A stretch of DNA of 44,755 nucleotides, taken from a virus. Of this stretch, positions 1 through 44,755 are shown piece after piece. Under the pieces are notes generated by a model. The model saw only the letters and a program-made list of their open reading frames with translations, was not told the origin of the DNA and made no database searches. Position 1 is the first letter of the stretch; the number at the start of each line of letters is the position of its first letter. The stretch is from IMG/VR virus record IMGVR_UViG_3300009610_000043, positions 1-44,755 of that record, one strand, 5' to 3'. A program made the position numbers and the translations under genes.

Positions 1-123
1 ACGACGGACTTAGTTACGACGTGTCTGATCTTAGATCTGTTATTCTTACATTTGCTTTAAGAAGTACGCATCAAGCAACGGCGTGCGTCAAGATGGTACA
101 GACAATGAAGTTTGTCGGTAAGA
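1..123. repeat. terminal direct repeat, left copy (circular overlap)
   Basis: Bases 1-123 are identical to 44633-44755. The repeat lies inside the helicase-primase-polymerase gene, and the reading frame continues exactly across the junction when the ends are joined. That is what a circular or circularly permuted contig gives; a real packaged terminal repeat would more often lie between genes. Confidence 0.97.
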
Positions 124-1850
124 ACAACATGCCAGAATCTAATCTTCCAGATAAGCCACTGATCTTCTTTGACGTCGAGGTTTATCCGAATCTCTTCATC
201 GTATGTTGGAAGTATCAAGATTCTGATACTGTTGTTCGAATGATCAACCCGACGGCTGAAGATATTGCTCCGCTCTTCAACCAAAGACTTATCGGCTTCA
301 ACAATAGACGTTACGACAATCACATTCTATATGCTCGATACATGGGGTATTCTCTTGAAGAACTATTTGACCTTTCTCAGCGCCTTATTAATAATGGATC
401 TAGCAATCCAAGCGGTCTTTTCGGAGAAGCCTACAACATCTCCTACGCCGACATTTTTGATTTTAGTTCTAAGAAGCAAGGACTGAAGAAGTTCCAGATT
501 GAACTAGGTATCCATCACCTCGAGTTGGATTTGCCGTGGGACGAACCAGTACCAGAAGGCGTGTGGTCCAAGGTAGAAGATTATTGCGTGAATGATGTCA
601 TTGCCACGGAGGCAGTCTTCAATTCTCGTAAGCAGGATTTCGTAGCTCGTGAGATCTTGGCTGAGTTGTCCGGACTCTCAGTAAATCACACGACACAGCA
701 ACATACTGCAAAGATCCTGTTTGGCGACGATAAGAATCCCCAAAAGAAATTCGTTTATACTGACCTGAGCGAGCGATTTCCAGGTTATAAGTTTGATGGG
801 AAGGAAAGCACTTATTGTGACGAAGTCACCGGTGAGGGTGGTTACGTCTATGCCGAACCAGGCGTTTATGAGAACGTCGCGCTTCTGGACGTGGCGTCTA
901 TGCATCCGACGAGTATCGAGCAACTTAATCTGTTTGGACCCTACACAGCAAACTTCAGTGCCCTCAAAGAGGCACGGATGGCGATCAAGCATAAAGATTA
1001 CGACAAAGCCCGTGGTCTTCTTGGAGGTCGACTCGCTAAGTTTCTGGAGCATGCTGAGAGTGACGATGAAGGTGTTGAAGCACTCGCGTATGCTCTCAAG
1101 ATCGTTATTAATATTGTCTACGGACTTACATCAGCTCGCTTCGAAAATCAATTCAGAGACAACCGAAACAAAGACAACATCGTAGCCAAGCGTGGTGCGT
1201 TGTTCATGATCGACTTGAAGCATGCAGTTCAAGATCGAGGATACCAGGTTGTCCATATCAAGACAGATTCAATCAAGGTAGTCATTCCTCCTGACTCGCC
1301 TAAAGGAGGTCAAGAAGTCATTGATTTCATTACAGATTTTGGAAAGGGATATGGATACGATTTCGAGTACGAAGGAACCTACGACAAGTTCGCTCTCCTC
1401 AACGATGCGGTATATGTTGCTCGTAGCGGTGGGAAGTGGACTGCTGTTGGGGCTCAGTTCCAAAACCCGTACGTCTTCAAGCAACTCTTTTCGCACGAAG
1501 ACATCGAATTTGATGACCTCTGTGAAGTCAAAAATGTCACGCAAGGCTCCATGTATCTCGGAGGAGGAGACGATGCTAATAGCCTTGACATGTCCGAGAT
1601 GCGGCATGTCGGGAGAACTGGAAGTTTCATGCCAGTTAGATACGACGGTAAACATCTATGGCGTATCAAGGATGGAAGACGCTACCACGTTTCTGGCACC
1701 AAGGGATATGAGTGGATTGAACGGGACTTGGCAAAACACCGGGATGAACTAGGTGAGCTGTTCACGGATATGGATTATTTCGAGAAGTTGAAGAACGACG
1801 CCATCAAATCCATTGAGCGTTTCATCCCCTTTGAGGAGTTTGTAGCATGA
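1..1850 (+). CDS. family B DNA polymerase, C-terminal half of a helicase-PrimPol-PolB fusion
   Basis: This is the polymerase part of a gene that starts at 42697 and crosses the circle junction in frame. Residues below count from the first in-window methionine codon candidate at base 21. The 3'-5' exonuclease motifs are visible: FDVEV near 50, GFNNRRYD at 92-99 and YCVND at 188-192. Palm motif A is DVASMHPTS near 290, motif B is KIVINIVYGLTS near 360, and motif C is KTDS at 414-417. These are family B signatures; in motif C a lysine replaces the first aspartate of the usual DTDS, while the metal-binding second aspartate is kept. No ribosome site precedes base 21, so a separate polymerase start there is unlikely. 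The stop overlaps the next start by 4 bp (ATGA). The protein should replicate phage DNA with its own proofreading. Confidence 0.93.
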   Translation, partial: DGLSYDVSDLRSVILTFALRSTHQATACVKMVQTMKFVGKNNMPESNLPDKPLIFFDVEVYPNLFIVCWKYQDSDTVVRMINPTAEDIAPLFNQRLIGFNNRRYDNHILYARYMGYSLEELFDLSQRLINNGSSNPSGLFGEAYNISYADIFDFSSKKQGLKKFQIELGIHHLELDLPWDEPVPEGVWSKVEDYCVNDVIATEAVFNSRKQDFVAREILAELSGLSVNHTTQQHTAKILFGDDKNPQKKFVYTDLSERFPGYKFDGKESTYCDEVTGEGGYVYAEPGVYENVALLDVASMHPTSIEQLNLFGPYTANFSALKEARMAIKHKDYDKARGLLGGRLAKFLEHAESDDEGVEALAYALKIVINIVYGLTSARFENQFRDNRNKDNIVAKRGALFMIDLKHAVQDRGYQVVHIKTDSIKVVIPPDSPKGGQEVIDFITDFGKGYGYDFEYEGTYDKFALLNDAVYVARSGGKWTAVGAQFQNPYVFKQLFSHEDIEFDDLCEVKNVTQGSMYLGGGDDANSLDMSEMRHVGRTGSFMPVRYDGKHLWRIKDGRRYHVSGTKGYEWIERDLAKHRDELGELFTDMDYFEKLKNDAIKSIERFIPFEEFVA

Positions 1851-2121: not shown

Positions 2122-2601
2122 GTGTCTGAACTGGCCAAGACATTCATGGTGGAAGATGCTCGTATTATCTTCCGTAATTTCGCAGGGAAGGAGGGGCAGT
2201 ACAACCGTGAGGGAGATCGCAACTTCGCAGTGGTTCTCCCGGATGATGTCGCTCATCAGATGCTCGCTGATGGGTGGAATGTTCGATATCTAGACGCTCG
2301 AGAAGAAGGCGACGATCCCACAGCCTATATCTCAGTCGCAGTCAATTTCAGTAATCGACCCCCGAGGGTTATTCTCCTCACGTCTACAACTCGTACACAG
2401 CTCGATGAGAATTCAGTCGCAGTCCTTGATTGGTCGGACATCAAGACCGCAGATCTTATTGCTCGAGGCTATGAATGGAGCGTCAACGGTAAGACTGGGA
2501 TCAAGGCTTATCTACAATCACTCTTCGTCACCATTGAGGAAGATGCTCTAGAGCGGAAGTATGCTATTCACGACATTCCGCCTGATAATTTCAATGAATA
2601 A
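2122..2601 (+). CDS. ssDNA-binding-like protein (actinophage family)
   Basis: The protein has 159 residues and starts at GTG two bases after the previous stop. It contains the segment ARIIFRNFAGKEG followed by YNREGDRNF, then beta-rich stretches and NGKTGIKAYLQSLFVTI near the end. This pattern is typical of a widespread actinobacteriophage family often placed beside replication genes and sometimes annotated as single-stranded DNA binding. Alternating hydrophobic strands and aromatic residues fit an OB-like fold. The acidic end (IEEDALERKYAIHDIPPDNFNE) recalls the acidic tails of SSBs that recruit partners, although it is not a classical tail. The family is recognised with fair confidence; the biochemical role is inferred. 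Confidence 0.8.
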   Translation: MSELAKTFMVEDARIIFRNFAGKEGQYNREGDRNFAVVLPDDVAHQMLADGWNVRYLDAREEGDDPTAYISVAVNFSNRPPRVILLTSTTRTQLDENSVAVLDWSDIKTADLIARGYEWSVNGKTGIKAYLQSLFVTIEEDALERKYAIHDIPPDNFNE

Positions 2602-3023: not shown

Positions 3024-3389
3024 ATGAATAATATGAATGTGGTTTTGGTCAAGATTGAGGATGATCGAGTCGTTGTTCTCAATGGAGAAAAGTACTTGGT
3101 TGTTGACAAGATTGCTTTAGAAGAGATTAATGAACTTGTTCCGACAAGAGTCTATACTCGAACCGAAGCTTTGCAGTCTGCAATTTTAGAAATCCTTAAA
3201 GCGCATCCGAATATTGCAAGTTCTGAGATTCGCAAACATCTTAACGAGAAATACGAGTTTCCAGAGTTCACTGGTAACACCATGCGCGGCTTGCTAGGTC
3301 GGATGAAAGATAAGGGATTGATTCGAGTTCATGGTAATAGGAATACCGCGACTTGGTCAATCATGCGTCGTCTGAGCGACGATAAATAG
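3024..3389 (+). CDS. winged-helix domain protein, putative regulator
   Basis: This 121-residue protein starts at an ATG behind AAGGA. Residues 1-45 are a short beta-rich domain (VVLVKIEDDRVVVLNGEKYLV). Residues about 50-115 look like a winged helix: helix AILEILKAHP, turn, helix SSEIRKHLNEKY, recognition helix TMRGLLGRMKDKGLI, then a wing RVHGNRNTATWSI. This is the usual shape of DNA-binding regulators and of replication-initiation winged helices. The gene stands directly downstream of promoter copy 1 and before the long structured non-coding stretch, so a regulatory role is plausible. The fold is read from the sequence pattern; the target is unknown. It is the only obvious regulator-like protein in the genome. 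Confidence 0.82.
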   Translation: MNNMNVVLVKIEDDRVVVLNGEKYLVVDKIALEEINELVPTRVYTRTEALQSAILEILKAHPNIASSEIRKHLNEKYEFPEFTGNTMRGLLGRMKDKGLIRVHGNRNTATWSIMRRLSDDK

Positions 3390-3827
3390 GCTTTAGGCTC
3401 AGAGCGTTGGTGTGCTAAGAATCGTCGGAGACGCTTGCCCGCCTCTTTGATGAAGTCTTACTGTCTGCAGTACCCCCGCCAGTACGTCAGACCACACCAT
3501 GTAGACTGTGAGGGTCACACAGCAGTCTTGAGGATCGATCCCCTCAAGTCGTTAAACAAAAAACCGCATTCGTGATCGGCGATGGGGAAATAAACCCACG
3601 TCGGATCGGAGACTTTTGTGTCTATCTTGTCTAGACATTGTCAAGGGTTCCTGGTGCACAAGACAGGAACCGCGAATGGACGCGGGGGGTAGGTGTACCG
3701 AGAGTTGCCTATCCCCTGCACTTTCTTTGATGGGGGCTAGCCGTTTTTCATCCAGCTGTCAGTTGTATGAGGCTAAGTCTTAAACGACAAAAATGCGCCC
3801 ATCATCTTCTCAACAAAGGAGAAACCA
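3390..3827 (+). ncRNA. structured non-coding region, candidate RNA(s)
   Basis: These 438 bp hold no credible gene but a dense run of hairpins: 3463-3473 with 3482-3492 (4+5 bp around a 2-base mismatch), GACTG 3504-3508 with 3523-3527, CTTGAGG 3527-3533 with 3542-3548, GGTTCCTG 3646-3653 with 3664-3671, and GGGGTAGG 3686-3693 with 3708-3716 (one bulge). A three-tier hairpin follows: 3728-3737/3795-3804, 3738-3742/3771-3775 and 3748-3751/3767-3770. The region looks GC-richer than its surroundings. I could not fit a tRNA cloverleaf. The element AAGTCGTTAAACAAAAAAC at 3546 has a looser echo near 3776. Whether this is one RNA or several, or DNA structure at an origin, cannot be decided by eye. Confidence 0.5.
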
Positions 3828-5441: not shown

Positions 5442-6641
5442 ATGGATATTGATTTAATGGAGCATCAGAGCGATGCCGTTGATCTTCTAGACAGCGGAAA
5501 GATCTTGTATGGGGGAGTAGGCGTAGGGAAGTCTGCAACCGCTTTGGCGTACTACATGAAGAAAGAAAAGGACTTAGATATTTATGTCATCACTACAGCA
5601 AAGAAACGTGACTCTCTCGACTGGACCGGTGAGGCCGCCAGATTTGGAATTGGCACTGAACGTAATGCAACGTTGGCTGGAATCATTAGTGTGGACTCCT
5701 GGAACAACATTGATAAGTATTGTAATGTCAGTGGAGCATTCTTCATTTTCGACGAGCAGCGTCTCGTGGGAAGTGGTGCTTGGGTACGATCCTTCCTTCG
5801 GATTGCTAAACGAAATAGATGGATCCTCCTCAGTGCAACACCCGGAGATACTTGGCTAGATTATGCCCCCGTCTTCATTGCAAACGGATGGTACAAGAAC
5901 ATCACTGAGTTCAAGCGTGAGCATGTGGTCTATGCTCCGTACGTAAAATTCCCAATGGTTGATCGTTACTTGGGGATCGCTAAGCTCGAGCGATTGCGCA
6001 ATGAACTCCTTGTGGAGATGCCGTACAAGTCACATACAGAACGGATCTTGAATTACTTGACTGTTGGGTATGATACCGAGCTGTGGGATATGGCTGTCAA
6101 ACGGCGTTGGCACCCTTACGAGAATAGACCCATTAAGGATGTTGCTGAGCTGTTTCGTGTCATGCGGAGAATTGTCAATACGGATCCGTCTCGTATGGAG
6201 ATGGTGCGGATGCTGATGAACACTCACCCGAAATTGATCATCTTCTACACGTTTAATTACGAGTTGGAGATTCTTAGGGACCTTGCGAATGAGACCGAAC
6301 TTGCGGAATGGAATGGTCATAAGAAGCAAAATGTCCCCAAAACTAATCGTTGGGTTTACCTTGTTCAGTATAATTCTGGGTCTGAAGGGTGGAATTGTAC
6401 AGAAACTGACGCTATGATTCTATATAGTTTAAGCTATTCTTATAAGAATCATATACAAGCTCAGGGTAGGATTGACCGTATTGATACGGCATTTACCAAT
6501 CTTTACTACTATATCTTAGAAAGTCAGTCCCCGATCGACAAAGCCGTTAAAAATGCTTTGCGTACGAAAAAATCGTTTAATGAGCGTGAGGCCATCAAAA
6601 AGTGGTCAAAATCGGCGAATAATTTCGACGTGCCGGTATGA
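5442..6641 (+). CDS. SNF2-type superfamily 2 DNA helicase/translocase
   Basis: The protein has 399 residues, with the ATG behind AAGGAGGTGAT. Walker A is GGVGVGKS near residue 24, the Walker B box is FDEQR at 103-107, motif III is SATPG near 131, and the motif VI arginine finger is QAQGRIDRID near 339-347. The two RecA-like lobes and the DEQR box fit a small phage SNF2/DEAD helicase that hydrolyses ATP to move along DNA. It is shorter than cellular SNF2 proteins (usually above 450 residues) and has no extra DNA-binding domain that I can see. Phage relatives usually lie with VRR-NUC and Cas4-like nucleases, as here, suggesting a role in replication fork restart or recombination. The stop overlaps a possible tiny frame at 6638. 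Confidence 0.92.
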   Translation: MDIDLMEHQSDAVDLLDSGKILYGGVGVGKSATALAYYMKKEKDLDIYVITTAKKRDSLDWTGEAARFGIGTERNATLAGIISVDSWNNIDKYCNVSGAFFIFDEQRLVGSGAWVRSFLRIAKRNRWILLSATPGDTWLDYAPVFIANGWYKNITEFKREHVVYAPYVKFPMVDRYLGIAKLERLRNELLVEMPYKSHTERILNYLTVGYDTELWDMAVKRRWHPYENRPIKDVAELFRVMRRIVNTDPSRMEMVRMLMNTHPKLIIFYTFNYELEILRDLANETELAEWNGHKKQNVPKTNRWVYLVQYNSGSEGWNCTETDAMILYSLSYSYKNHIQAQGRIDRIDTAFTNLYYYILESQSPIDKAVKNALRTKKSFNEREAIKKWSKSANNFDVPV

Positions 6642-8238: not shown

Positions 8239-10893
8239 GTGTTCATTGACGAAGATGATTATCTAGCCCATTATGGAATTCTCCGTCGTTCTGGTCGATA
8301 TCCATGGGGTTCCGGTCAAAATGAAAATCAACGAAACAAGATCTTCCTTCAGACTGTTTCGGATTTGAGAAAGCAAGGCCTAACGGAAGTCGAAATTGCT
8401 AGAGGATTTGATTGCTCCACTACCGATCTTAGAGCAGCAAAGTCTGAAGCTAAAAATCAACAAAAGCAAGCTGATATTGCAATGGCTCAGCGGTTGAAGG
8501 AAAAAGGATATTCAACCAACGCCATTGCTAACAGAATGGGAATTCCAGAATCATCTGCTAGAAATCTCTTAAAGCCAGGCGAAGCAGATAAAAATGATGT
8601 TCTTATTTCAACAACCGCCATGCTTAAGGCTCAAGTTGATGAAAAAGGCTTTGTAGATGTTGGTAAGGGCGTAGAGAACTATATTGGTGTCACTTCTACA
8701 AGACTTGATACCGCGATATCTATGGTTCGTGGCCAAGGATATGAACTTCACTATGTTACGGTTAAGCAACTTGGTACAGGTCATGAAACTAAGATGAAGG
8801 TGTTAGGTCCTCCTGGATCTACTCAAAAAGATGTTTGGCAACATCCAGAAAAGATTCAACAGATTACTAATTATTCTGATGATGGTGGTCGATCTTATAC
8901 TAAGACCCAAACTCCTATTTCAATCAGCCCAAAGCGGGTTGGTATTGTTTACGCCGATCAAGGTGGTTCGAAAGCAGATGGAGTAGTTTATGTTCGGCCA
9001 GGAGTTGACGATATTGCTCTTGGCGGGTCAAAGTACGCCCAAGTTCGTATTCAGGTTGGAGATGGCCATTATATTAAGGGAATGGCTATGTACAAGGATG
9101 ATTTACCAGATGGTGTAGACCTTATGTTTAATACGTCTAAAAGAGATACTGGTAACAAACTCGATGCAATGAAGCCACTTACTGATGATCCAGATCTTCC
9201 GTTTGGTTCTATCGTTCGTCAAATTGTAGATAAGCCTGGATCTCCAAACGCCAAAGTAACTTCTGTTATGAATATTGTTAATGAAGAAGGAAACTGGGCT
9301 GATTGGTCTCGTACTTTGTCTTCTCAGATGTTGTCTAAGCAAAGCCCGCATCTCGCTAAGACACAGTTAGATATGACTTATGAACGTCGTCTAAATGATT
9401 ATGAAAATATCAGCAATCTTACAAACCCAACAGTTCGTAAGAAGTTGCTTATGGATTTTGCTGGTAGTACTGATTCGGCAGCCGTTCATCTAAAGGCTGC
9501 AGCAATGCCAGGTCAAGCAGTAAGAGTTATTCTTCCAGTATCTTCGATTCAACCAAATCAAGTTTATGCCCCCACTTTTAGAAATGGCGACACTGTTGTA
9601 TTGATTCGTCACCCACATGGTGGGACATTTGAGATTCCAAGATTAACGGTTAACAATAATCATGCTGAATCTAAGAAGCTTCTTGGGGATGCAAGAGATG
9701 CAATTGGTATTCATCACGAAACAGCTAAGAGATTGTCGGGTGCTGATTTCGATGGAGATACAGTTCTTGTAATTCCAGATTCCGCACGTAGGATTAAAGA
9801 TTCGCCTGCTCTAAAAGCGCTTAATGATTTCGATCCTAGAGCATCGTACCCAGCATATGAGGGTATGAAGCCTATGCGTAATACGCAAACAGAGATGGGG
9901 AAGATCTCTAATCTTATTACGGACATGACTATTCAAGGCGCCAGTCATGATGAAGTTGCCCGTGCTGTTAAGCATTCCATGGTTGTTATTGATGCGGAAA
10001 AACATAATCTTAATTATAAACTGTCTTATAATGATAACAACATTAGACAACTTAAAGAGAAGTATCAAAGACAACCCAGTGGTTCAACAGGTGCCGCCAC
10101 CCTTATCTCAAGGGCTAAGTCTGAGATACGGGTACCTGAAAGAAAAGAACGCAGCCAAGGTAAAGGTGGCCCTATTGATAAGGCTACTGGTGAACGCGTC
10201 TTTGAAGAAACAGGTAGGGTACATTGGAAGTCTGGTATGCCCATCACTACCACCACCACTAGGTTGGGTGAGGCTAAGGATGCGCATACTCTATCATCAG
10301 GTACCCCTATTGAACGGTACTATGCAGATCATTCTAATCAACTCAAGTCTTTAGCTAATACGGCTAGGCTTCAAGCAATTAATACCCCCCCTTCAAAGTA
10401 TCTGCCCTCTGCTAAGAAGGTGTATGCTAATGAAGTAGCCTCCCTCAATTCTAAATTGACCGTGGCTAAAAGTAATGCCCCTCTTGAACGACAGGCCCAG
10501 TTAATAGCCAACAGTATTGTTAAGACTAAGAAGAGTTACAATCCTAACATGGATAAGGATACGCATAAGAAGGTTGAATACCAGGCCCTTCAAGAAGCCC
10601 GTGCACGTACGGGTGCAGATAAACAACAGATCCGCCTCACTAATCAAGAATGGGACGCCATACAGGCGGGAGCTATCAGTGATTCTAAACTCTCCGAGAT
10701 CTTAACACATGCAGACATGGATGTAGTACGTAAGCTTGCAACACCTAAGACTGAGATACTAATGACAAGTAACATGACTAATAGAGCCAACGCTATGTTT
10801 GCATCTGGCTATACTAGATCAGAGGTAGCACAAGCACTTGGTGTATCAGTTAGTACATTGGATGTTGCAACAGTAGCAACAACAACTGAATGA
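8239..10893 (+). CDS. DFDGD-motif protein, putative single-chain RNA polymerase with HTH repeats
   Basis: The protein has 884 residues; GTG start behind AAGGAGGTGATTT. The N-terminus contains HYGILRRSGRYPWGSG (about 11-26), then two helix-turn-helix units (LRKQGLTEVEIARGFDCSTT and RLKEKGYSTNAIANRMGIPE, within about 43-113). The core holds VVLIRHPHGGTFEIPRLTV and then SGADFDGDTVLVIP with DFDGD at 503-507, the metal-binding signature of double-psi beta-barrel RNA polymerases (RNAP beta', YonO-like, RdRP-like). After it comes TEMGKISNLITDMTI and HSMVVIDAEKHNLNYK. A third helix-turn-helix (GYTRSEVAQALGVSVSTLD) ends the protein. The motif and size fit a phage DNA-dependent RNA polymerase; activity is inferred. 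The 3' quarter appears to use somewhat different codons. It lies immediately before the late-gene boundary. Confidence 0.82.
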   Translation: MFIDEDDYLAHYGILRRSGRYPWGSGQNENQRNKIFLQTVSDLRKQGLTEVEIARGFDCSTTDLRAAKSEAKNQQKQADIAMAQRLKEKGYSTNAIANRMGIPESSARNLLKPGEADKNDVLISTTAMLKAQVDEKGFVDVGKGVENYIGVTSTRLDTAISMVRGQGYELHYVTVKQLGTGHETKMKVLGPPGSTQKDVWQHPEKIQQITNYSDDGGRSYTKTQTPISISPKRVGIVYADQGGSKADGVVYVRPGVDDIALGGSKYAQVRIQVGDGHYIKGMAMYKDDLPDGVDLMFNTSKRDTGNKLDAMKPLTDDPDLPFGSIVRQIVDKPGSPNAKVTSVMNIVNEEGNWADWSRTLSSQMLSKQSPHLAKTQLDMTYERRLNDYENISNLTNPTVRKKLLMDFAGSTDSAAVHLKAAAMPGQAVRVILPVSSIQPNQVYAPTFRNGDTVVLIRHPHGGTFEIPRLTVNNNHAESKKLLGDARDAIGIHHETAKRLSGADFDGDTVLVIPDSARRIKDSPALKALNDFDPRASYPAYEGMKPMRNTQTEMGKISNLITDMTIQGASHDEVARAVKHSMVVIDAEKHNLNYKLSYNDNNIRQLKEKYQRQPSGSTGAATLISRAKSEIRVPERKERSQGKGGPIDKATGERVFEETGRVHWKSGMPITTTTTRLGEAKDAHTLSSGTPIERYYADHSNQLKSLANTARLQAINTPPSKYLPSAKKVYANEVASLNSKLTVAKSNAPLERQAQLIANSIVKTKKSYNPNMDKDTHKKVEYQALQEARARTGADKQQIRLTNQEWDAIQAGAISDSKLSEILTHADMDVVRKLATPKTEILMTSNMTNRANAMFASGYTRSEVAQALGVSVSTLDVATVATTTE

Positions 10894-23455: not shown

Positions 23456-23478
23456 CTCTTTTGAAAGGATCAGTCAAA

Positions 23479-25326
23479 ATGGAACCAGATTTCAGCGGTT
23501 ACGCAACTAAGGCTGGACTCCAATGTTCTGACGGTCGAACCATCATGCCTGGTGCTTTCAAGCATCAAGATAAGATGCGGGTTCCTCTCGTTTGGCAGCA
23601 CGGTCATTCAGACCCGGAGAACGTTCTTGGCCATGCCGTCCTCGAGAATCGAGATGATGGAGTTTATACATACGGATACTTTAATACGTCAGCAAAGGCC
23701 GTTCATTCCAAGCAGCTTCTCGATCATGGTGATATTACCATGCTTTCCATCTGGGCAAATGAACTCGTTGAACGAGCCGGCAAGGTTCTCCACGGAGCTA
23801 TTCGTGAAGTGAGTCTTGTTTTGTCCGGCGCTAACCCAGGCGCTCTCATCGAAAATGTCACGATTCACCACGGCGAAGGTGATGACGTCATGCTTGAAGA
23901 TGAGGTAATCATCTATACGGGCCTTGAGCTCGAGCATGCCGATGCTGATGAGAAGAAGGACGACGAAGAAGACGGCGAAGATGGAGAAACCATCCAAGAT
24001 GTCTATGATTCAATGTCCGATAAGCAGAAGCAGGTGCTTCATTACATGCTCAGTCAGACGCTTCCGTCTACTGAGACTGATGAAGAAGTAAAACAAGATA
24101 ATCTCAACGATGACTCCAACGGTACCACTCAGGAAGGTAACACAATGACCCGTAACGTTTTTGAGAAGGACGGGCAAGACGACACCAAGTCGCCAGTTCT
24201 CTCGCACTCTGACATGCAGGGCATTGTTGCCGATGCGACGAAGATCGGATCGCTCAAGGCGGCTGTTGAGAGTTATGCGCTTGCTCACGGTATCAATCAG
24301 ATCGACGTTCTCTTCCCAGAGGCGCAAGCTCTCACCACGGCGCCGGAGTTCTATACTCGTCGTCAGGAATGGGTGAACTCGGTTCTTGGTGGAGCTCGTA
24401 AGAGCCCCTTCAGTCGGGTGAAGACTCACTGGGCAGACCTCACCTATGATGATGCTCGTGCGAAGGGCTATATCACTGGCGAAGAGAAGCAGGAAGAGTT
24501 CTACGGAACTGCTCGTCGGGAAACTGCCCCGCAGACCATCTACAAGAAGCAGAAGCTGGATCGTGATGACATTCTTGACATCACGGACTTCGATGTCGTT
24601 GCCTGGATGAAGGGCGAGATGAGGCTTATGCTTGATGAGGAACTGGCTCGTGCAATTCTTCTTGGTGATGGGCGTGTGCTTCCGGATCCAGACAAGATTT
24701 TGGAGGAGCGCATTCGTCCGATCGCCAAGGATGATCCGCTGTTTGCCATTCAGGTACTGTGCGATTTCTCTACCATCGACAAGTTCGTCGATGCCGTTAT
24801 TCAGTGGCGTTCTCAGTATCGCGGCAGTGGACAACCTACGCTGTATACCAGTGAGGCCCTTCTTTCCAGCGTCATGATGCTCAAGGATACGCTTGGTCGT
24901 CGTATCTATTCGAATCTCGATCAGTTTGCTGCTGAGATTCGTGTTTCATCGATCGTTCCGGTTGATATCTTTGATCCAGCTGCTGGACAGCCGAAAGCGA
25001 TCATGGTCAACATGAACGACTACGTGATCGGTTCCGACAAGGGCGGACAGGTTAGTCTGTTCGATGATTTCGACATCGATTACAACCAGTACAAGTATCT
25101 GATTGAGACTCGGTGCTCCGGTGCTCTGGTCAAGCTCAAGTCTGCGTTGGTTTTCAAGCAGGGAACGTTTGTTGCGCCTCCTGGTGGTACCGGTCATATC
25201 ATTGTGCCTGAACCGCCGAATGAGCGTCAGAGTGTCCCGCCGGTCCATGGATCGCTGCCTGATGATACTGTGACGACGACGGCGACGGAGACCAAGGCTC
25301 CTAAGAAGTCTTCATCTGAGTCGTAA
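23479..25326 (+). CDS. capsid maturation protease fused to major capsid protein
   Basis: ATG 23479 behind GAAAGGA is preferred over TTG 23461; about 615 residues. Residues 1-150 form a HK97-type (U35) prohead protease: VWQHGHSDPENVLGHA holds the catalytic His and EVSLVLSGANPGA (near 112) the Ser. An acidic linker (about 155-210, DEKKDDEEDGEDGE) leads to a HK97-fold major capsid protein from about 223 (MTRNVFEKDGQD) with a helical delta-like domain and VWQ-type core strands. An internal ATG at 24145 lies 7 bases after AGGAAGG, so free capsid protein may also be made. The capsid half looks richer in G+C than its neighbours, as a highly expressed gene might be. Protease-capsid fusions are known in phages. 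Confidence 0.93.
   Translation: MEPDFSGYATKAGLQCSDGRTIMPGAFKHQDKMRVPLVWQHGHSDPENVLGHAVLENRDDGVYTYGYFNTSAKAVHSKQLLDHGDITMLSIWANELVERAGKVLHGAIREVSLVLSGANPGALIENVTIHHGEGDDVMLEDEVIIYTGLELEHADADEKKDDEEDGEDGETIQDVYDSMSDKQKQVLHYMLSQTLPSTETDEEVKQDNLNDDSNGTTQEGNTMTRNVFEKDGQDDTKSPVLSHSDMQGIVADATKIGSLKAAVESYALAHGINQIDVLFPEAQALTTAPEFYTRRQEWVNSVLGGARKSPFSRVKTHWADLTYDDARAKGYITGEEKQEEFYGTARRETAPQTIYKKQKLDRDDILDITDFDVVAWMKGEMRLMLDEELARAILLGDGRVLPDPDKILEERIRPIAKDDPLFAIQVLCDFSTIDKFVDAVIQWRSQYRGSGQPTLYTSEALLSSVMMLKDTLGRRIYSNLDQFAAEIRVSSIVPVDIFDPAAGQPKAIMVNMNDYVIGSDKGGQVSLFDDFDIDYNQYKYLIETRCSGALVKLKSALVFKQGTFVAPPGGTGHIIVPEPPNERQSVPPVHGSLPDDTVTTTATETKAPKKSSSES
24134..24147 (+). promoter_or_regulatory. internal ribosome site for the capsid protein
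   Basis: AGGAAGG followed by seven bases and an in-frame ATG (24145-24147) lies at the end of the acidic linker of the protease-capsid fusion. This spacing is as good as that of real starts in this genome, so capsid subunits free of protease could be translated here. Confidence 0.55.
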
Positions 25327-37945: not shown

Positions 37946-38045
37946 GTACGGGTTTTGGAAATTTCTCGGAGATGTGTTTCTGACATGTCTTACGGGAGGA
38001 TTCTGGTTGATTTGGATTTTCGTTAGGGAGATGCGAAATCGATGA
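37929..38045 (+). CDS. 38-residue conserved membrane protein
   Basis: The GTG start lies 6 bases after GAAGGAGA, inside the end of the previous gene, and the stop overlaps the next start (ATGA). The sequence begins STRRKYGFWKFLGDVFLTC and continues LTGGFWLIWIFVREMRNR: a basic start, two short hydrophobic stretches with GG, and a basic end. The pattern YGFW...GD.FLT..TGG.WLIW.F.REMR is one I know from other phages. Coupled at both ends, it is probably made in fixed ratio with the DUF6353-like protein that follows. Confidence 0.75.
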   Translation: MSTRRKYGFWKFLGDVFLTCLTGGFWLIWIFVREMRNR

Positions 38046-38797
38046 GTAAATTGTCTCGATTCAGTGGAACCGTTCTAAGGAACATAAAAGCTAATTCGCC
38101 CGTTATCTTGTCTGTTGCCGCTGGAGTTGGGACAATCGCTACCGCTTTGTTGGTAGGAAAAGCATCCTTTGAGGCAGCTAATGCTATTAGAGATCATGAA
38201 GAGCAGAATGCTCCAGCTATTAATCCGAAAGAACGGCTAAAGGATAGAACTAAACTTGTCTGGAAATTCTATATTCCACCGGCAATTTCGACCGTTTCTA
38301 CTATCATGTGTGTTGCTGGGGCTAATCGAGTGGGAGCTCAAAAAACCTTTGCCGCTAACGCTGCACTCTCTGTCATCGAACGAGCATATTCTGATTATAG
38401 AGAAAAAACGGTTGAAGAGCTTGGTCCACGTAAAGATCAATCCATTCGAGATAAGGTTGTTGCTGACCAAATAGCTAAAACGCCATCTCCATCTCAAGAT
38501 ATTCTGGTGACCGGTCCAGGAAACATTTTGTGTTGTGAGATGTTCACTATGCGATATTTCGCAAGTGATATGGAGAAGTTGAGAAAGGCTCAGAACGAAC
38601 TCAATTCTAAATTATTGAAACATGATTATGCTACATTCGATGATTTCTATTATATTATCGGATTGCAGCCAACCACAACTTCAGGAAATCTTGGATGGAC
38701 GTCAGATAAATTGATGGAGCTTGAATTCTCCACAGCATTGTCAGATGACGGCCGTCCATGCATCACGTTCACGTACAATTACACCAAAACACTATAA
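38042..38797 (+). CDS. DUF6353-like membrane protein, paralogue 1
   Basis: The protein has 251 residues; ATGA overlap start. The N-terminus has NSPVILSVAAGVGTIATALLVGKASFEAANAI (TM1, about 18-42), then a charged loop, KFYIPPAISTVSTIMCVAGANRVGAQKTFAANAALSVIERAYSDYRE (TM2 about 76-96 and a long helix), a soluble middle and a C-terminal domain (FDDFYYIIGLQPTTTSGNLGWTSD). The layout matches the phage family I know as DUF6353. Paralogue 2 at 40495 has the same order of parts. Function unknown; membrane location is visible in the sequence. Confidence 0.85.
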   Translation: MSKLSRFSGTVLRNIKANSPVILSVAAGVGTIATALLVGKASFEAANAIRDHEEQNAPAINPKERLKDRTKLVWKFYIPPAISTVSTIMCVAGANRVGAQKTFAANAALSVIERAYSDYREKTVEELGPRKDQSIRDKVVADQIAKTPSPSQDILVTGPGNILCCEMFTMRYFASDMEKLRKAQNELNSKLLKHDYATFDDFYYIIGLQPTTTSGNLGWTSDKLMELEFSTALSDDGRPCITFTYNYTKTL

Positions 38798-38809
38798 AGG
38801 ATATCTAAA

Positions 38810-38896
38810 ATGGACAACAAGTACAAGTACAGCATCATTCTTCTCATCATCCTCATTCTCACTGTCGGTGGGGTCGTTTGGAACAACAAGGACTGA
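38810..38896 (+). CDS. 28-residue single-helix protein
   Basis: ATG 38810 follows AAAGGATATCTAAA. MDNKYKYSIILLIILILTVGGVVWNNKD is one near-perfect hydrophobic helix flanked by polar ends. Good ribosome site and tight spacing to the DUF6353-like gene. No family recognised. Confidence 0.62.
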   Translation: MDNKYKYSIILLIILILTVGGVVWNNKD

Positions 38897-38901
38897 TCGC
38901 A

Positions 38902-39036
38902 ATGGACAAGTTTGATAGGACTGATATTGTAATCGCTAGTTTAATCGTAGGGTATGCTATCGGATCGCTTGTTACTCAGCGTCGAACACTAACTTTGTTG
39001 AAATTGGCTAAAATGGCTTCGGATATCGAAAAGTAG
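38902..39036 (+). CDS. 44-residue membrane protein
   Basis: The ATG follows the previous stop by 5 bases. MDKFDRTDIVIASLIVGYAIGSLVTQRRT contains a short glycine-zipper-like hydrophobic segment (IVIASLIVGYAIGSLV), then a basic helical tail with LLKLAKMASDIEK. No separate strong ribosome site; coupling to the 28-residue gene is likely. Family unknown. Confidence 0.62.
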   Translation: MDKFDRTDIVIASLIVGYAIGSLVTQRRTLTLLKLAKMASDIEK

Positions 39037-39039
39037 AGG

Positions 39040-39066
39040 TTCGCAGAAAAAACATGCGTTATAATG
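39040..39066 (+). promoter_or_regulatory. promoter element copy 7
   Basis: TTCGCA 39040-39045, 14 bases (GAAAAAACATGCGT), TATAAT 39060-39065 and G. It drives the 54-residue gene, which is closed by a strong terminator at 39266. Confidence 0.75.
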
Positions 39067-39091
39067 AGAGAATTACTAAAGGAGAAATATC

Positions 39092-39256
39092 ATGATCGAA
39101 GCTATGACAAATAGCGACAGTTCGTTGCCGATGAAGCATCAGATTTCCAAGCTCGTTCTCGGCACACTTGCCGGGTTCGCTGCTGGAAAGCTGACTGAAA
39201 AGGCTTACGACGCCGCACTTGCTTGCTATAAGAACAGGAAGATGATCGTAAAGTGA
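39092..39256 (+). CDS. 54-residue glycine-zipper-like membrane protein
   Basis: ATG 39092 behind AAAGGAGAAATATC. After a polar start (MIEAMTNSDSSLPMKHQ) comes ISKLVLGTLAGFAAGKLTEKAYDAALACY, with spaced Gly/Ala typical of helix packing, then a basic end. Placed alone between promoter copy 7 and a strong terminator, it resembles the promoter/gene/terminator cassette at 5132-5418. Confidence 0.75.
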   Translation: MIEAMTNSDSSLPMKHQISKLVLGTLAGFAAGKLTEKAYDAALACYKNRKMIVK

Positions 39257-39265
39257 TCAATCACA

Positions 39266-39295
39266 GGGAGAGCCTACATGGGTTCTCCCTTTTTT
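39266..39295 (+). terminator. strong intrinsic terminator
   Basis: GGGAGAGCC pairs with GGGTTCTCCC (6 bp GGGAGA/TCTCCC plus inner pairs) around a short loop, then six T. It ends the unit from promoter copy 7. Confidence 0.88.
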
Positions 39296-39313
39296 CAATT
39301 AGAAAGGTAAAGA

Positions 39314-39739
39314 ATGCTCAAGCGTGATATCACCTACGAGAACTTCGATGGTGAGCAAGTGACGGAAACGTTTTATTTCAATTTGACCAGAAGCGAATTG
39401 GTTGAACTCGAGGTTGGATATCAGGGAGGGCTTCAGGAGGCCATTCAAAGAATCATCAAGACGGATGATAAGCAAAGTTTGATCGCTGAATTCAAGAAGC
39501 TTGTGCTTTTGGCGTATGGTGTCAGGTCAGAAGATGGAAAGCGATTTATCAAAACTGACCAGCTTCGAGAGGAATTCTCTCAGACGGCTGCATACGACTC
39601 GTTGTTCATGGAGCTCGCCACGAGTGACGATGCTGCAGCCAATTTCATTAAGGGCGTAGTTCCGAAGGATTTCCAGAGGGAGATGGCGAAGGTCGAAACC
39701 GTTCCACTTCCGGCCATGCCGTCGGTGCCAAAGGAATAA
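39314..39739 (+). CDS. tail assembly chaperone-like conserved phage protein
   Basis: The 141-residue protein has an ATG behind AGAAAGGTAAAGA. It reads KRDITYENFDGEQVTETFYFNLTRSELVELEVGYQGGLQEAIQRIIK, then FKKLVLLAYGVRSEDGKRFIK and YDSLFMELATSDDAAANFIKGVVPKDF. This pattern ('Y-DF-G---TETFYFNLT--E' and 'AYG-RS-DGKRFIK') is common in phages of Gram-positive bacteria and I associate it with tail-chaperone-like proteins. Its position 3 kb after the hub, outside the tail block, is odd. Confident as a family, uncertain as to role. Confidence 0.78.
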   Translation: MLKRDITYENFDGEQVTETFYFNLTRSELVELEVGYQGGLQEAIQRIIKTDDKQSLIAEFKKLVLLAYGVRSEDGKRFIKTDQLREEFSQTAAYDSLFMELATSDDAAANFIKGVVPKDFQREMAKVETVPLPAMPSVPKE

Positions 39740-39740
39740 G

Positions 39741-40364
39741 ATGGATTATCAAGGTAACCCGAATAAAGCTAAAGAAGAAAAGCCAGCCAAGCAAATTGAA
39801 AAGGTCGTTACCGGAGAAGTTATCCAAAAGCCAAAGTCTATTGGACGTAAGTTCAAAGATATATTTCTTGGCGGTGATTTGAGGGCCTCAGCTAGATCTG
39901 TTACTGGGGATGTCATTCTTCCAGCTATTCGAGATTTGATTGTTGATGCCGTATCCAGTGGAGCTAAGCGACTCGTGTACGGTGAGTCGATGTATAGACG
40001 TCGCCCTACGGAGTATCGGCCTCGAGTTCAATACAGTAATCCGATTAATCCATCATATCGCGGGATGAGAGATCCGCGTGAGCGTCCAAATCTTCCAGAT
40101 CAACCAAGCTTAGTTAGACAACAGCGACGCGAAGCTAATGAAATCATCTTGGCTCAGCGAGAAGATGCAGAACTTGTCGTAGAGCGATTGATTGATATTA
40201 TCGATAAGTACGATGTGGCATCATTGGCTGATCTTTATGATCTTCTTGGGTGGCCCACAACTCCTATTGACAACAAATGGGGCTGGACATTCTTGAAGAA
40301 TGTAGAGATCCGTCAAGTTCGAGATGGATATTTGATCGATCTACCGCCATTGGAGGCTGTGTAA
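39741..40364 (+). CDS. conserved phage protein, unknown function (207 aa)
   Basis: The ATG follows the previous stop by one base. Parts: basic N-terminus (NPNKAKEEKPAKQIEKVVTGEVIQKPKSIGRKFKDIFLGGD), a helical region (TGDVILPAIRDLIVDAVSSGAKRLVYGES), an arginine/proline-rich linker (YRRRPTEYRPRVQYSN) and a C-terminal domain (ERLIDIIDKYDVASLADLYDLLGWPTTPIDNKWGW) close to the C-terminal domain of the DUF6353-like proteins ('DFY-IG-----GNLGW'). I know this protein from many phages where it travels with the DUF6353-like gene. Not membrane-spanning; perhaps a cytoplasmic partner of the island. Confidence 0.85.
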   Translation: MDYQGNPNKAKEEKPAKQIEKVVTGEVIQKPKSIGRKFKDIFLGGDLRASARSVTGDVILPAIRDLIVDAVSSGAKRLVYGESMYRRRPTEYRPRVQYSNPINPSYRGMRDPRERPNLPDQPSLVRQQRREANEIILAQREDAELVVERLIDIIDKYDVASLADLYDLLGWPTTPIDNKWGWTFLKNVEIRQVRDGYLIDLPPLEAV

Positions 40365-40498
40365 TGAGCAATCATGAACGTGACCAATTGAAGAGAGGCA
40401 ATCCTTCAAAGAAATGGGCAGAAGAAGTTGATAAAATGCGCCCTGAGGAAGTAGTCAACATTTACAACCGTCTGCGGGCAGAGGGAAAGTCAAAGTGA
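40364..40498 (+). CDS. 44-residue conserved phage protein
   Basis: ATG 40364 lies in a TAATG overlap with the previous stop. MSNHERDQLKRGNPSKKWAEEVDKM then RPEEVVNIYNRLRAEGKSK: short, basic and helical. This small pattern (KRG-PSKKWA..VDKM...-V--IYNRLR-EGK) recurs in phages near the same neighbours. It ends in a GTGA overlap with the paralogue 2 gene. Confidence 0.75.
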   Translation: MSNHERDQLKRGNPSKKWAEEVDKMRPEEVVNIYNRLRAEGKSK

Positions 40499-41379
40499 AG
40501 AACAAACTTATACGGATTATTCCGAATTCTGTGGTCGGCAAAGTTAGTCGGTCCATTCTGAAGGCCAAGAAGAATTCCCCTCATATCTTCTTTGCAGCGG
40601 GTATAGCAGGAACAATCACAAGTACGGTTCTGGCTTGTCGAGCAACCTTGAAGCTTTCTTCAACTCTCGATGAGATCAAGCATGACGTTGAGGTGCTTGA
40701 GACAGATCCGGTTCGAAACGAAATGCCAACTGAGGAATGGCGTCTTGATACGGTTTATATTTATGGTAAGGCTAGTCTCAGGCTCGTCAGGCTTTATGGG
40801 CCTGCGGCTGTGGTTGGCGTAGTTTCCATTGGAATGCTTACTGGTTCACACGTTCAATTGGTTCATCGTAACACCGCACTGATGGCAGCGTATGCAGCCG
40901 TTCAGAAGGCTTATGACGAGTATCGTGAACGAGTACGATATCAGTTCGGCGAAGAAGCAGAACTCGAGTTGTATCACGCATCAAGGACCGAGTTGGTTAA
41001 AGATGCTAGTGGCGAAGTCATTGAGGCAAGGGTAGTCGATCCAAACAGGTATTCTCCTTACGCAAAGTTCTTTGATGAGTATTCTCGTCATTGGAACAAG
41101 GATCCTGAATTGAATCGACTGTTCATTCAGTGTCAGCAGAACTATGCTAATGATCTTCTAAATGCTCGTGGTCATATTTTCCTCAACGAAGTATACGATC
41201 AGCTTGGCATTGATAGATCAAAGGCTGGTGCGGTTGTTGGTTGGGTGAAAGGTGGAGAAGGTGATAACTACATTGATTTCGGAATGTTCCAAGCATACAA
41301 TTCACAGTTCGTGAATGGGTGGGAGCGTAGCATTCTTCTTGATTTCAATGTCGACGGAGTTATCTACGACAAGATTTAG
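40495..41379 (+). CDS. DUF6353-like membrane protein, paralogue 2
   Basis: The protein has 294 residues with a GTG start overlapping the previous stop. KNSPHIFFAAGIAGTITSTVLACRATLKL (TM1), a loop with EVLETDPVRNEMPTEE, YGPAAVVGVVSIGMLTGSHVQLVHRNTALMAAYAAVQKAYDEYRERV (TM2 plus helix) and a longer C-terminal domain (NARGHIFLNEVYDQLGIDRS, then GAVVGWVKGG). The order of parts equals paralogue 1, with a longer inter-domain insert (about 165-210). The pair could form a hetero-oligomer. Confidence 0.86.
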   Translation: MKNKLIRIIPNSVVGKVSRSILKAKKNSPHIFFAAGIAGTITSTVLACRATLKLSSTLDEIKHDVEVLETDPVRNEMPTEEWRLDTVYIYGKASLRLVRLYGPAAVVGVVSIGMLTGSHVQLVHRNTALMAAYAAVQKAYDEYRERVRYQFGEEAELELYHASRTELVKDASGEVIEARVVDPNRYSPYAKFFDEYSRHWNKDPELNRLFIQCQQNYANDLLNARGHIFLNEVYDQLGIDRSKAGAVVGWVKGGEGDNYIDFGMFQAYNSQFVNGWERSILLDFNVDGVIYDKI

Positions 41380-41387
41380 GAGAAATT

Positions 41388-42149
41388 ATGAAACTTGAAC
41401 TAAAAGGATGGGTAATTCCGGCAAGTGTTGGCGTTGTCTCATTCGCAGCTGGTTTTGGCGTTGGTTATTTTATTTCAAAACATAAAAAGGTTGACGCCAA
41501 AATCGAAGAGGTAAAAGAAGAACTTCGTTCTGAGAATGTTCAACTCGAATTCAAATTTGAAGAAGTTGAACAACGCTTTGCTAGTGCGATGCAACAAGCT
41601 GATCATGTAGTCAAAAAATTAAAAGATGATGGTCAAGCATTTCTAAACAAGTTTAATGAGCCGGTTATCCAAGCAGCTAAGGATAACCATCCAAGTAATG
41701 ATAAAAGAGGTACCAACTTGGTTTCAATTAACAATATGGATGAGGAGGTTTTGACAACCAACGTCTTCCAAAGTGATGACGATGACGATTGGGACTACGA
41801 AGATGAACTTAGTCAGCGTAGCGAAGCAGCTCCTTACATTATTCACAGAGATGAATACGACCAAAACGAAGAAGATTACAGCACGTCGACCTTGATGTAT
41901 TACGAGGGCGATAATATTCTTTGTGATGAACACGATGTCCCTGTTTACAATCCCGACAAGGTAGTTGGCAAACTAATCTTCGGACATGGATCACGTGATC
42001 CTAGCATCTGTTATATTCGAAACGATCAACTTCTAGCTCTGTATGAAGTCATTATTGACCACGGATATTTTCAAACAGAAGTCCTTGGTCAACAAATTGA
42101 GCATGGTATCAGGAGACATCGTTCCCTTCCAAAATTTAGGATGGAATAG
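41388..42149 (+). CDS. membrane-anchored conserved phage protein (253 aa)
   Basis: The protein has 253 residues; ATG behind AGGAGAAATT. TM helix near 8-28 (VIPASVGVVSFAAGFGVGYFI), then charged coiled coil (KVDAKIEEVKEELRSENVQLEFKFEEVEQRF), a very acidic linker (SDDDDDWDYEDE) and a C-terminal domain PYIIHRDEYDQNE...STLMYYEGDNILCDEHDVPV then FGHGSRDPSICYIRNDQLLALYEVI. I know the C-terminal pattern ('PYVI--EEF-E--Y---SLTYYADGVL-D') from phages of Gram-positives. Function unknown. It looks like a membrane tether carrying a soluble domain on a long coiled arm. Confidence 0.87.
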   Translation: MKLELKGWVIPASVGVVSFAAGFGVGYFISKHKKVDAKIEEVKEELRSENVQLEFKFEEVEQRFASAMQQADHVVKKLKDDGQAFLNKFNEPVIQAAKDNHPSNDKRGTNLVSINNMDEEVLTTNVFQSDDDDDWDYEDELSQRSEAAPYIIHRDEYDQNEEDYSTSTLMYYEGDNILCDEHDVPVYNPDKVVGKLIFGHGSRDPSICYIRNDQLLALYEVIIDHGYFQTEVLGQQIEHGIRRHRSLPKFRME

Positions 42150-42151
42150 AT

Positions 42152-42685
42152 ATGGAGGGGCCTCTTGAAGATCTATATTTTCGGTGGCTCTGTGCAAAAG
42201 TTACGTATGTTACGAGTCCAACTCCATCATTAACACATTGGAACCTCCTTAAGATTCTTCATAATACTGAATTCGTATGGCTGTTATCTGGAGATGATAA
42301 TCGATCCGAAGACGGAAAAGAACTTCGAATAGATTTCTTGTTCGAGGGTAATATTCCAGATAATGTTGAATGGAGAGCTTTGCCTTGTTCTATTTTAGAG
42401 ATGCTCATTGCGTTTTCTCGAAGAGCTGAATTCCAAACAGATACTCCAGCTCGAGAATGGTTCTGGGAATTCATTGATAATCTAGGATTGAAAGAACTTA
42501 ATGATGGAGCTGAGATTGATCTTGATGAAGTCGAGATGATTTTGGATCGATTTATTTGGAGAACATATAATCCAAGAGGTGAGGGTGGTATATTACCAAT
42601 CAGCAATGTGAACGGTGATCAAAGAGGAATCGAAATTTGGTATCAGTTCTGTGACTACTTAGTAGATCATCAGCGTATGCCATGA
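42152..42685 (+). CDS. conserved phage protein (RAEFQTD family)
   Basis: The 177-residue protein has an ATG two bases after the previous stop. Segments LEDLYFRWLCAKVTYVTSPTPSLTHWNLLKILHNTEFVWLLSGDDNRSEDGKELR, LEMLIAFSRRAEFQTDTPAREWFWEFIDNLGL and EIWYQFCDYLVDHQRMP form a pattern I have often seen in phages of Gram-positive bacteria next to replication genes. Mostly alpha-helical and soluble, no catalytic motif visible. Placed between the membrane island and the replication fusion, it may belong to either. Function unknown. Confidence 0.87.
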   Translation: MEGPLEDLYFRWLCAKVTYVTSPTPSLTHWNLLKILHNTEFVWLLSGDDNRSEDGKELRIDFLFEGNIPDNVEWRALPCSILEMLIAFSRRAEFQTDTPAREWFWEFIDNLGLKELNDGAEIDLDEVEMILDRFIWRTYNPRGEGGILPISNVNGDQRGIEIWYQFCDYLVDHQRMP

Positions 42686-42696
42686 AAGGAGGGTTT

Positions 42697-44755
42697 GTGG
42701 ACTTTTATAAGATCAGGATAAAGGAGACTAAGGGAGTTCCACAAGCTTACCCGGATTGGATTGTTGATGGTGTTGATGATTTAATGGTTAGAGGAGGTTC
42801 ATTCTACGCTGTATGGGATGAATCTCTTGGTATGTGGTCCACAGACGAATTCAATGTTCGACGGCTTGTAGATGCTGACATTCACGATTTCGTTGAGAGC
42901 GCCAAACAAAAAGGTACTGTCTTCGAACCTCTTTTCACAAGAAACTTTAGCACAGGAACTTGGGAGCGATTTAATAAGTATATTCGGAATCTTCCAGACA
43001 GCGGTAATTACTATCCGCTTGACGAAACAATAACTTTTGCAAACACAGAGGTTAAGAAAAAAGATTATGTTAGTAAGCGACTGCCCTATTCCCTCGAGGC
43101 AGGAAAGACAGAAGCTTGGGATGAACTCCTGGGCGTGTTATATTCTGCTGATGAGCGAGATAAAATTGAGTGGGCCATCGGAGCAATCGTCTCAGGTGAT
43201 TCGAGATGGATCCAGAAATTCTTAGTATTCTATGGTCCTCCAGGAACCGGCAAGTCCACAGTAATCAGCATTATCGAGAAGCTCTTCGAAGGATACGTAG
43301 CTACGTTTGAAGCTAAGGCCTTGACGAGTAGCAATGGAACATTTGCTATGGAGGCGTTTGAGAGTAATCCGCTGGTAGCAATCCAACACGATGGCGATTT
43401 GTCTAGAGTCGAAGATAACACAAAGTTGAATTCAATCGTTGGCCACGATTCGATGCAACTCAACGTGAAGTATCGATCGGCTTTCACGATTCGTCCTAAT
43501 GCGTTTGTTATTGTTGGAACGAATAAGCCAGTAAAGATTTCAGACGCTAAGGCTGGTAATACACGACGCTTGATTGATGTGCATCCAACCGGAGCTAAGA
43601 TTGAACCAGGGCGATATCATATCCTTACGGAGAACATTAATTACGAGCTAGGCGCCATAGCTTATAAATGTCTCCAGCGGTATCGCGACATGGGTAAATT
43701 CTATTATGAGAATTATATCCCGACGAAGATGATGATGTTAACGGATACCTTCTACAACTTTGTGGAAGCTCACTTCGATATCTTCAAGTCTCAGGACGGA
43801 ATTCAACTCAAGCATGCCTGGGATCTGTACAAGCAGTATTGTGAGGATGCCAACATTGTCAAGCGTCTCCAGTATCATGAAGTTCGTGATGAGCTAACGA
43901 GTTATTTCGAAGACTTTAAGGATCGGCATTTCATGGGGGAGAAGGAATACAGAAGCGTTTACATTGGTTTTAAAGGTCTACCAGAGCAAGGACCTATACC
44001 ATTTGTACCAGATACTTCATACGTAATTGAACTGGATGATTACGATCCTGTTTATCATGGCTCAGCTTTTGATAACGCATATCCTGATCTACCAGCACAA
44101 GAAGCAAAGCCAAGTGGTTTCCCAGGTAAGAAATGGGAACGAGTCACAACAACCTTGCGAGATATAGATACAACAAAACTTCATTACGTGCAGGTCCCGG
44201 AACAGCATGTCGTCATTGATTTCGATTTGGTGGACGAAGATGGCGAAAAGGATCTTGAGCAGAACATAGAACGAGCGTCGAAGTTGCCGCCCACTTACAC
44301 AGAATTGAGTAAGAGTGGGAAAGGTCTTCATTTGCATTATATTTATAGTGGCGACGTTACTGAGTTGGATTCTGCTCTTGATGTTGGTATTGAGATTAAG
44401 ACCCTCTTGGGAGACAGTGCTCTCCGTAGGAAGCTTACAAAATGCAACAACCTTGATATTGCTGTTCTCAGTAGTGGCCTTCCAAGGAAAGAGAAAAAGG
44501 TGATTGAGACTAAGAGTATACAAAGTGAGCGGGGACTTCGTGAACTAATTGATCGCAATCTTCGTAAGGAGATTCATCCTGGAACAAAGCCCTCAATCGA
44601 CTTTATTCACCACATCCTTGAAGACGCTTATAACGACGGACTTAGTTACGACGTGTCTGATCTTAGATCTGTTATTCTTACATTTGCTTTAAGAAGTACG
44701 CATCAAGCAACGGCGTGCGTCAAGATGGTACAGACAATGAAGTTTGTCGGTAAGA
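42697..44755 (+). CDS. SF3 helicase and PrimPol part of helicase-PrimPol-PolB fusion (continues at base 1)
   Basis: GTG 42697 lies behind AAAGGAGGGTTT. Joined across the circle it gives about 1261 residues with no stop. Residues to about 160 are an N-terminal domain. The SF3 helicase has Walker A GPPGTGKST near 180, a Walker B-like HDGD near 231, motif C GTNKP near 274 and RRLIDVHP. After a linker, an archaeo-eukaryotic primase core follows: IDFDLVD near 507 (two metal aspartates), SKSGKGLHLHY near 538 and IEIK near 565. A helical stretch leads into the polymerase from about 690. The primase is placed after the helicase, the reverse of the usual order in primase-helicases. One chain would prime, unwind and copy DNA. 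The last 123 bases repeat the window start. Confidence 0.92.
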   Translation, partial: MDFYKIRIKETKGVPQAYPDWIVDGVDDLMVRGGSFYAVWDESLGMWSTDEFNVRRLVDADIHDFVESAKQKGTVFEPLFTRNFSTGTWERFNKYIRNLPDSGNYYPLDETITFANTEVKKKDYVSKRLPYSLEAGKTEAWDELLGVLYSADERDKIEWAIGAIVSGDSRWIQKFLVFYGPPGTGKSTVISIIEKLFEGYVATFEAKALTSSNGTFAMEAFESNPLVAIQHDGDLSRVEDNTKLNSIVGHDSMQLNVKYRSAFTIRPNAFVIVGTNKPVKISDAKAGNTRRLIDVHPTGAKIEPGRYHILTENINYELGAIAYKCLQRYRDMGKFYYENYIPTKMMMLTDTFYNFVEAHFDIFKSQDGIQLKHAWDLYKQYCEDANIVKRLQYHEVRDELTSYFEDFKDRHFMGEKEYRSVYIGFKGLPEQGPIPFVPDTSYVIELDDYDPVYHGSAFDNAYPDLPAQEAKPSGFPGKKWERVTTTLRDIDTTKLHYVQVPEQHVVIDFDLVDEDGEKDLEQNIERASKLPPTYTELSKSGKGLHLHYIYSGDVTELDSALDVGIEIKTLLGDSALRRKLTKCNNLDIAVLSSGLPRKEKKVIETKSIQSERGLRELIDRNLRKEIHPGTKPSIDFIHHILEDAYNDGLSYDVSDLRSVILTFALRSTHQATACVKMVQTMKFVGK
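44633..44755. repeat. terminal direct repeat, right copy
   Basis: Identical to bases 1-123. See the left copy; the repeat shows that the genome unit is 44632 bp and closes on itself inside the replication gene. Confidence 0.97.

Follow-up and report, generated by a model that had tools for sequence, protein, structure and literature searches.

A GP55-type replicase joining helicase, primase and family B polymerase modules in one chain, encoded across the ends of a phage record

The window analysed here is the whole of one virus record, IMGVR_UViG_3300009610_000043, with a length of 44,755 bases. It almost certainly encodes a tailed-phage replicase of the HelPrimPolB (GP55) type, in which an SF3 helicase, an archaeo-eukaryotic (AEP) primase, an alpha-helical domain (aHD) and a proofreading family B DNA polymerase (PolB) are carried on one chain. 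The present analysis established the fusion and its modules, the conservation of the active sites and the gene neighbourhood, and the gene belongs, as a new member, to a replicase family that has already been named and tested biochemically.

Results

As shown in Table 1, the replicase gene is divided between the two ends of the linear record, which share 123 identical bases. We infer that this repeat is an assembler leftover of a circular or circularly permuted genome. Joining 42697-44632 to 1-1850 gave a frame of 3786 nt whose only stop is its last codon. The frame has 1262 codons, the stop counted, and encodes 1261 aa, and the junction was located at residue 645-646. Both the 123-base overlap and the continuous 1262-codon frame of the original prediction were thus borne out by the identity of the ends and by translation. 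A second possible start, ATG 42682, lies upstream of GTG 42697 in the same frame. The GTG was preferred because an ATG start would place the ribosome-binding site within the gene, and nearly all full-length relatives started to align at residue 1 as counted from GTG 42697.

Table 1 Replicase gene, its modules and selected neighbours in the window (positions of the 44,755-base record)
Feature	Position	Strand	Evidence or remark
Replicase 5' half, residues 1-645	42697..44632	+	GTG start; PHROG 4210 positions 1-701, E 2.3e-279
Replicase 3' half, residues 646-1261 and stop	1..1850	+	PHROG 4210 positions 665-1285, E 3.7e-274
Terminal copy of bases 1-123	44633..44755	+	exact 123-base identity; counted twice in the linear record
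Ribosome-binding site AAAGGAGG	42684..42691	+	sequence; usual distance before GTG 42697
SF3 helicase domain, about residues 120-420	43054..43956	+	Pfam DUF5906 E 1.7e-13; fold match; conserved residues
AEP primase domain, about residues 470-605	44104..44511	+	D508, D510, H545, E566; sub-cut-off Pfam Prim-Pol
aHD start, helices 611-622 and 630-646	44527..44632	+	AF2 model
aHD continuation, helices 654-665 and 671-679 (Y651, F663)	1..134	+	AF2 model
3'-5' exonuclease domain, about residues 697-880	153..704	+	Exo I D703/E705, Exo II D751, Exo III Y840/D844
Family B polymerase domain	762..1850	+	motif A D942; motif B K1012-N1016-Y1019; motif C KTDS 1066-1069
phrog_4678 protein, directly upstream of replicase	42152..42685	+	PHROG E 2.9e-57
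DUF6353 protein, one modest hydrophobic segment	40495..41379	+	Pfam E 6.3e-68; hydropathy
Phage ssDNA-binding / single-strand annealing protein	2122..2601	+	Pfam Phage_ssDNA_bind 3.2e-62; homologue of 1706 GP66

The N-terminal part was predicted with a mean pLDDT of 82 (AF2 model), and the helicase fold matched the SaPI5 primase-helicase 7ola, the C-terminal region of NrS-1 and, among large DNA viruses, primase-helicases of the D5 type (AsfvPrimPol and MPXV E5). Walker A (residues 179-188, with K186), Walker B (D232), sensor 1 (N276) and the arginine finger (R290/R291) were all found intact. The SF3 motif residues were invariant or nearly so among 173 aligned proteins, with K186, sensor 1 and both arginines kept in 173/173. 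Most of the catalytic-motif residues counted across all modules did not vary; D232 and D234 of Walker B, as well as K1012 and Y1019 of polymerase motif B, each varied in 1-5 of the 173, and D234 was substituted in four.

The AEP catalytic residues, namely the DxD (D508 and D510), H545 and E566, were present and invariant in all 173 aligned proteins. The third acidic residue is probably E566, assigned by its invariance; D587, the aspartate of LDIAV, was considered for this position and rejected, since GP55 has P there and E566 is invariant. Pfam Prim-Pol matches under the curated cut-off were obtained in 11 of the 20 members tested, the best at 0.0024, and only weak, meaningless matches came up when the AEP/aHD alignment was searched against PDB sequences. 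The AEP module was assigned from its motifs and from the homologue GP55. Between primase and polymerase, four predicted helices within residues 611-679 in the AF2 model correspond to the GP55 aHD, and Y651 and F663 are the counterparts of the Tyr and Phe that GP55 needs for priming.

For the C-terminal part, the fold was that of a B-family polymerase with an exonuclease. Its nearest structures were 9N, KOD and E. coli Pol II, the last of which was also the PDB profile match of the polymerase part (1.2e-6). The Exo I-III residues were invariant in 173/173, as were the catalytic polymerase aspartates. Motif C deviates: it reads KTDS (window 1260-1271), with Lys in place of the first Asp of the usual DTDS in all 173 members. 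GP55 shares this KTDS and is an active polymerase with it (PMC12205980). The original prediction had placed the catalytic motifs correctly (Walker A 179-188, DxD 508/510, exonuclease and polymerase motifs 703-1069) and overlooked the aHD as a fourth module. HMM searches and structure prediction, which it had proposed as checks, supported the SF3 and PolB modules; for AEP, the Pfam matches stayed below the cut-off.

The family was sampled as 200 loci drawn from genome collections of viruses, phages and bacteria. The same fusion was found in relatives, as the original prediction had proposed to check: the order SF3-AEP-aHD-Exo-Pol was present in 174 complete single ORFs. A contig end cuts nearly all remaining members, and breaks away from contig ends were seen in three only: a stop separates the helicase from the rest of the replicase in L196, the frame shifts within Pol in L188, and the polymerase part carries an insert in L167. 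Split genes as a family rule were rejected, since only these three are interrupted away from contig ends, and no permuted module order was seen within the 200 loci. The order is identical in all the complete genes, with the key active-site residues kept. The insert in L167 (L167:10709-11851) is about 1.1 kb long and holds a BRO-N ORF and a NUMOD4/I-HmuI-like homing-endonuclease-like ORF; an Rfam search of it found no intron, and a mobile intron and a degraded copy are both possible explanations.

The gene neighbourhood was also conserved, although its counts overstate independent support, since the loci were collected by similarity to the window replicase and close relatives dominate. A phrog_4678 homologue was found in 166 of 168 loci, at a median of 9 nt from the replicase ORF, and the genes upstream of the replicase included DUF6353 (166/168), phrog_4079 (164/168) and phrog_4695 (130/168). 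The phrog_4695 protein has one modest hydrophobic stretch, like the DUF6353 protein. Downstream of the replicase, the ssDNA-binding/annealing gene was present in 142 of 148 loci, and a helicase with a Helicase_C domain (window 5442-6641) was conserved in 121 of them. Among about 40 window ORFs, including part of the small ones, no further DNA polymerase and no DnaG primase or DnaB helicase was recognised by PHROG. The conserved upstream set itself occupies 38042-42685 in the window, in the order DUF6353, a tail-assembly-chaperone family match, phrog_4079, DUF6353, phrog_4695 and phrog_4678, and three proteins of this set have a hydrophobic stretch.

Several other features of the window were observed. 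An 884-aa protein (8239-10893) matched PHROG 4291 ('RNA-dependent RNA polymerase', 1256 bits) and has an ADFDGD motif near residue 503 together with helix-turn-helix matches; its homologues lie near the replicase in 38 of 148 loci, and the protein is probably an RNA polymerase of the phage single-chain type, similar to YonO/QDE-1. A Pistol self-cleaving ribozyme was detected at 3366-3432 on the + strand (46.4 bits against an Rfam gathering score of 34.5). It runs into the end of the 3024-3389 ORF, for which a weak match to penicillinase repressor was obtained. At 23461-25326, a head maturation protease and the major capsid protein are apparently fused in a 621-aa ORF, as judged from phrog_3270 over 7-568 and Pfam Phage_capsid at 330-562.

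Discussion

The original prediction held that the order helicase-primase-polymerase was undescribed. This was refuted by the naming of the group, by the work on GP55, by the ReqiPepy6 record and by PHROG 4210. Kazlauskas et al. 2020 named HelPrimPolB after its domain organisation, placed its polymerase in the PolEpsilonN-like clade and attributed the architecture to their own 2016 paper (PMC7544198). PHROG 4210, annotated as DNA polymerase, spans both replicase halves end to end. There were 252 GenBank phage records covering at least 80% of either half, all with less than 60% identity and usually annotated as 'DNA primase/polymerase' or 'DNA polymerase', and the ReqiPepy6 record already states two domains, COG3378 and PolB, with similarity to a Lactococcus phage protein.

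The suggestion that SF3 helicase, AEP primase and proofreading PolB make a 'one-gene replisome core' holds, and it has been demonstrated biochemically for the homologue GP55 (PMC12205980). Zhang et al. 2025 purified GP55 of Lactococcus phage 1706, a 'four-in-one replicase' with the same module order, and reported helicase, primase, polymerase and exonuclease activity as well as more than 1000 homologues (PMC12205980). Its unwinding depends on UTP/dTTP, and its RNA primer synthesis prefers GTP and the site CCAAC; the protein is a dimer, the aHD is required for priming, and its distinct primase and polymerase sites can cooperate in trans (PMC12205980). The D712A/E714A mutant loses the exonuclease (PMC12205980).

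By homology with GP55, the helicase domain of the window protein would open the fork and provide strand displacement, and the AEP and aHD would lay short RNA primers for the PolB domain to extend and proofread. The replicase probably works as a dimer, together with the phage's own ssDNA-binding protein (2122-2601). Each activity of the window protein, its dimerisation, its RNA priming and the coordination of the modules would be expected from what GP55 does.

Could the fusion be an artefact of joining unrelated contig ends, with helicase-primase and polymerase truly separate genes? The junction does fall within the gene. However, the complete relatives with the same order are in many cases contig-internal, and the nearest ones are 80-82% identical over the full length, the closest two (L015 and L016) showing 82% identity across the whole replicase. 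Relatives at most 82% identical carry the same frame unbroken inside contigs, often with the whole gene internal, and the alignment with relatives runs through the residue-645 junction with no gap specific to the window protein. The joined gene is genuine, since close relatives carry the uninterrupted frame inside contigs, and an artefactual fusion was rejected on these grounds, its probability being negligible.

That the fused protein is made with only some modules active, for example with the helicase as an oligomerisation or DNA-binding platform or with a vestigial primase, would agree with the behaviour of GP55, which does not need its helicase domain for de novo synthesis on ssDNA but dimerises through it (PMC12205980), and with the replacement of Walker B D234 in the four family members mentioned above. 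It is nevertheless very improbable: the Walker A Lys, sensor 1, the arginines and the AEP, exonuclease and catalytic polymerase residues are kept throughout the aligned proteins, and GP55 loses unwinding with K189A and priming with D509A (PMC12205980). We also considered an extended reading, in which the replicase works with the upstream cassette (phrog_4678, phrog_4695 and DUF6353, some possibly membrane-bound), replication is membrane-anchored, and the main branch of the family differs from GP55 in the nucleotide preference of its helicase and in its partners. This was regarded as unlikely, and the HelPrimPolB replicase with all modules on one chain is the preferred reading.

Compared with GP55, the window protein has the four modules in the same order and is 38.6% identical over 1250 aa. 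All seven mutated GP55 residues checked are conserved: K189, D509, Y655, F667, D712, E714 and D949 correspond to K186, D510, Y651, F663, D703, E705 and D942 of the window protein. Phage 1706 and the window both have homologues of the ssDNA-binding protein and the helicase downstream of the replicase; no homologue of the phrog_4678 gene, which lies directly upstream in the window, was found in phage 1706. In a tree of the 173 proteins, made by a quick method with long branches flagged and a midpoint root for drawing only, GP55, P118 and D_HF5_2C formed a separate long branch, whereas the window protein lay deep among the other 170. Walker A reads GAKGTGKGT in GP55 and GPPGTGKST in the window protein, and Walker B reads IDADSDIS and IQHDGDLS, respectively. 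Because these surroundings differ, the UTP/dTTP dependence of GP55 need not extend to the main branch, and such details may differ between GP55 and the window protein. No mention of the separate GP55 branch or of the conserved upstream gene set was found in the GP55 paper or in the description of the group in the HelPrimPolB paper. The sole biochemically studied member lies on an outlying branch, and a main-branch enzyme such as the window protein would test the generality of its properties.

The HelPrimPolB group, as far as its published description goes, has the SF3 helicase and PrimPol N-terminal to PolB, as in the window, and a deviating motif C, which in the window is KTDS; no feature distinguishing the window protein was found in the text of that description (PMC7544198). 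The 'DNA primase/polymerase' genes of actinophages (Gordonia, Arthrobacter, Streptomyces and Rhodococcus phages) differ, as tested, only in sequence divergence and host, and ReqiPepy6 and RosaAsantewaa have the same gene neighbours as the window. Homologous helicase and PolB domains occur in Eggerthella phage EL753P1 and Listeria phage LP-083-1, but there the primase-helicase and PolB are separate adjacent genes, and the primase-side domains (NrS-1-type HBD and D5_N in EL753P1, PriCT-1 in LP-083-1) precede the helicase, whereas the primase follows it in the window. The phi29-type protein-primed PolB uses terminal-protein priming in place of a primase; the window chain carries a primase module, and general PHROG scans, which covered about 40 window ORFs, named no terminal protein. 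With the window protein, the recently characterised class of one-chain replicases gains an intact member.
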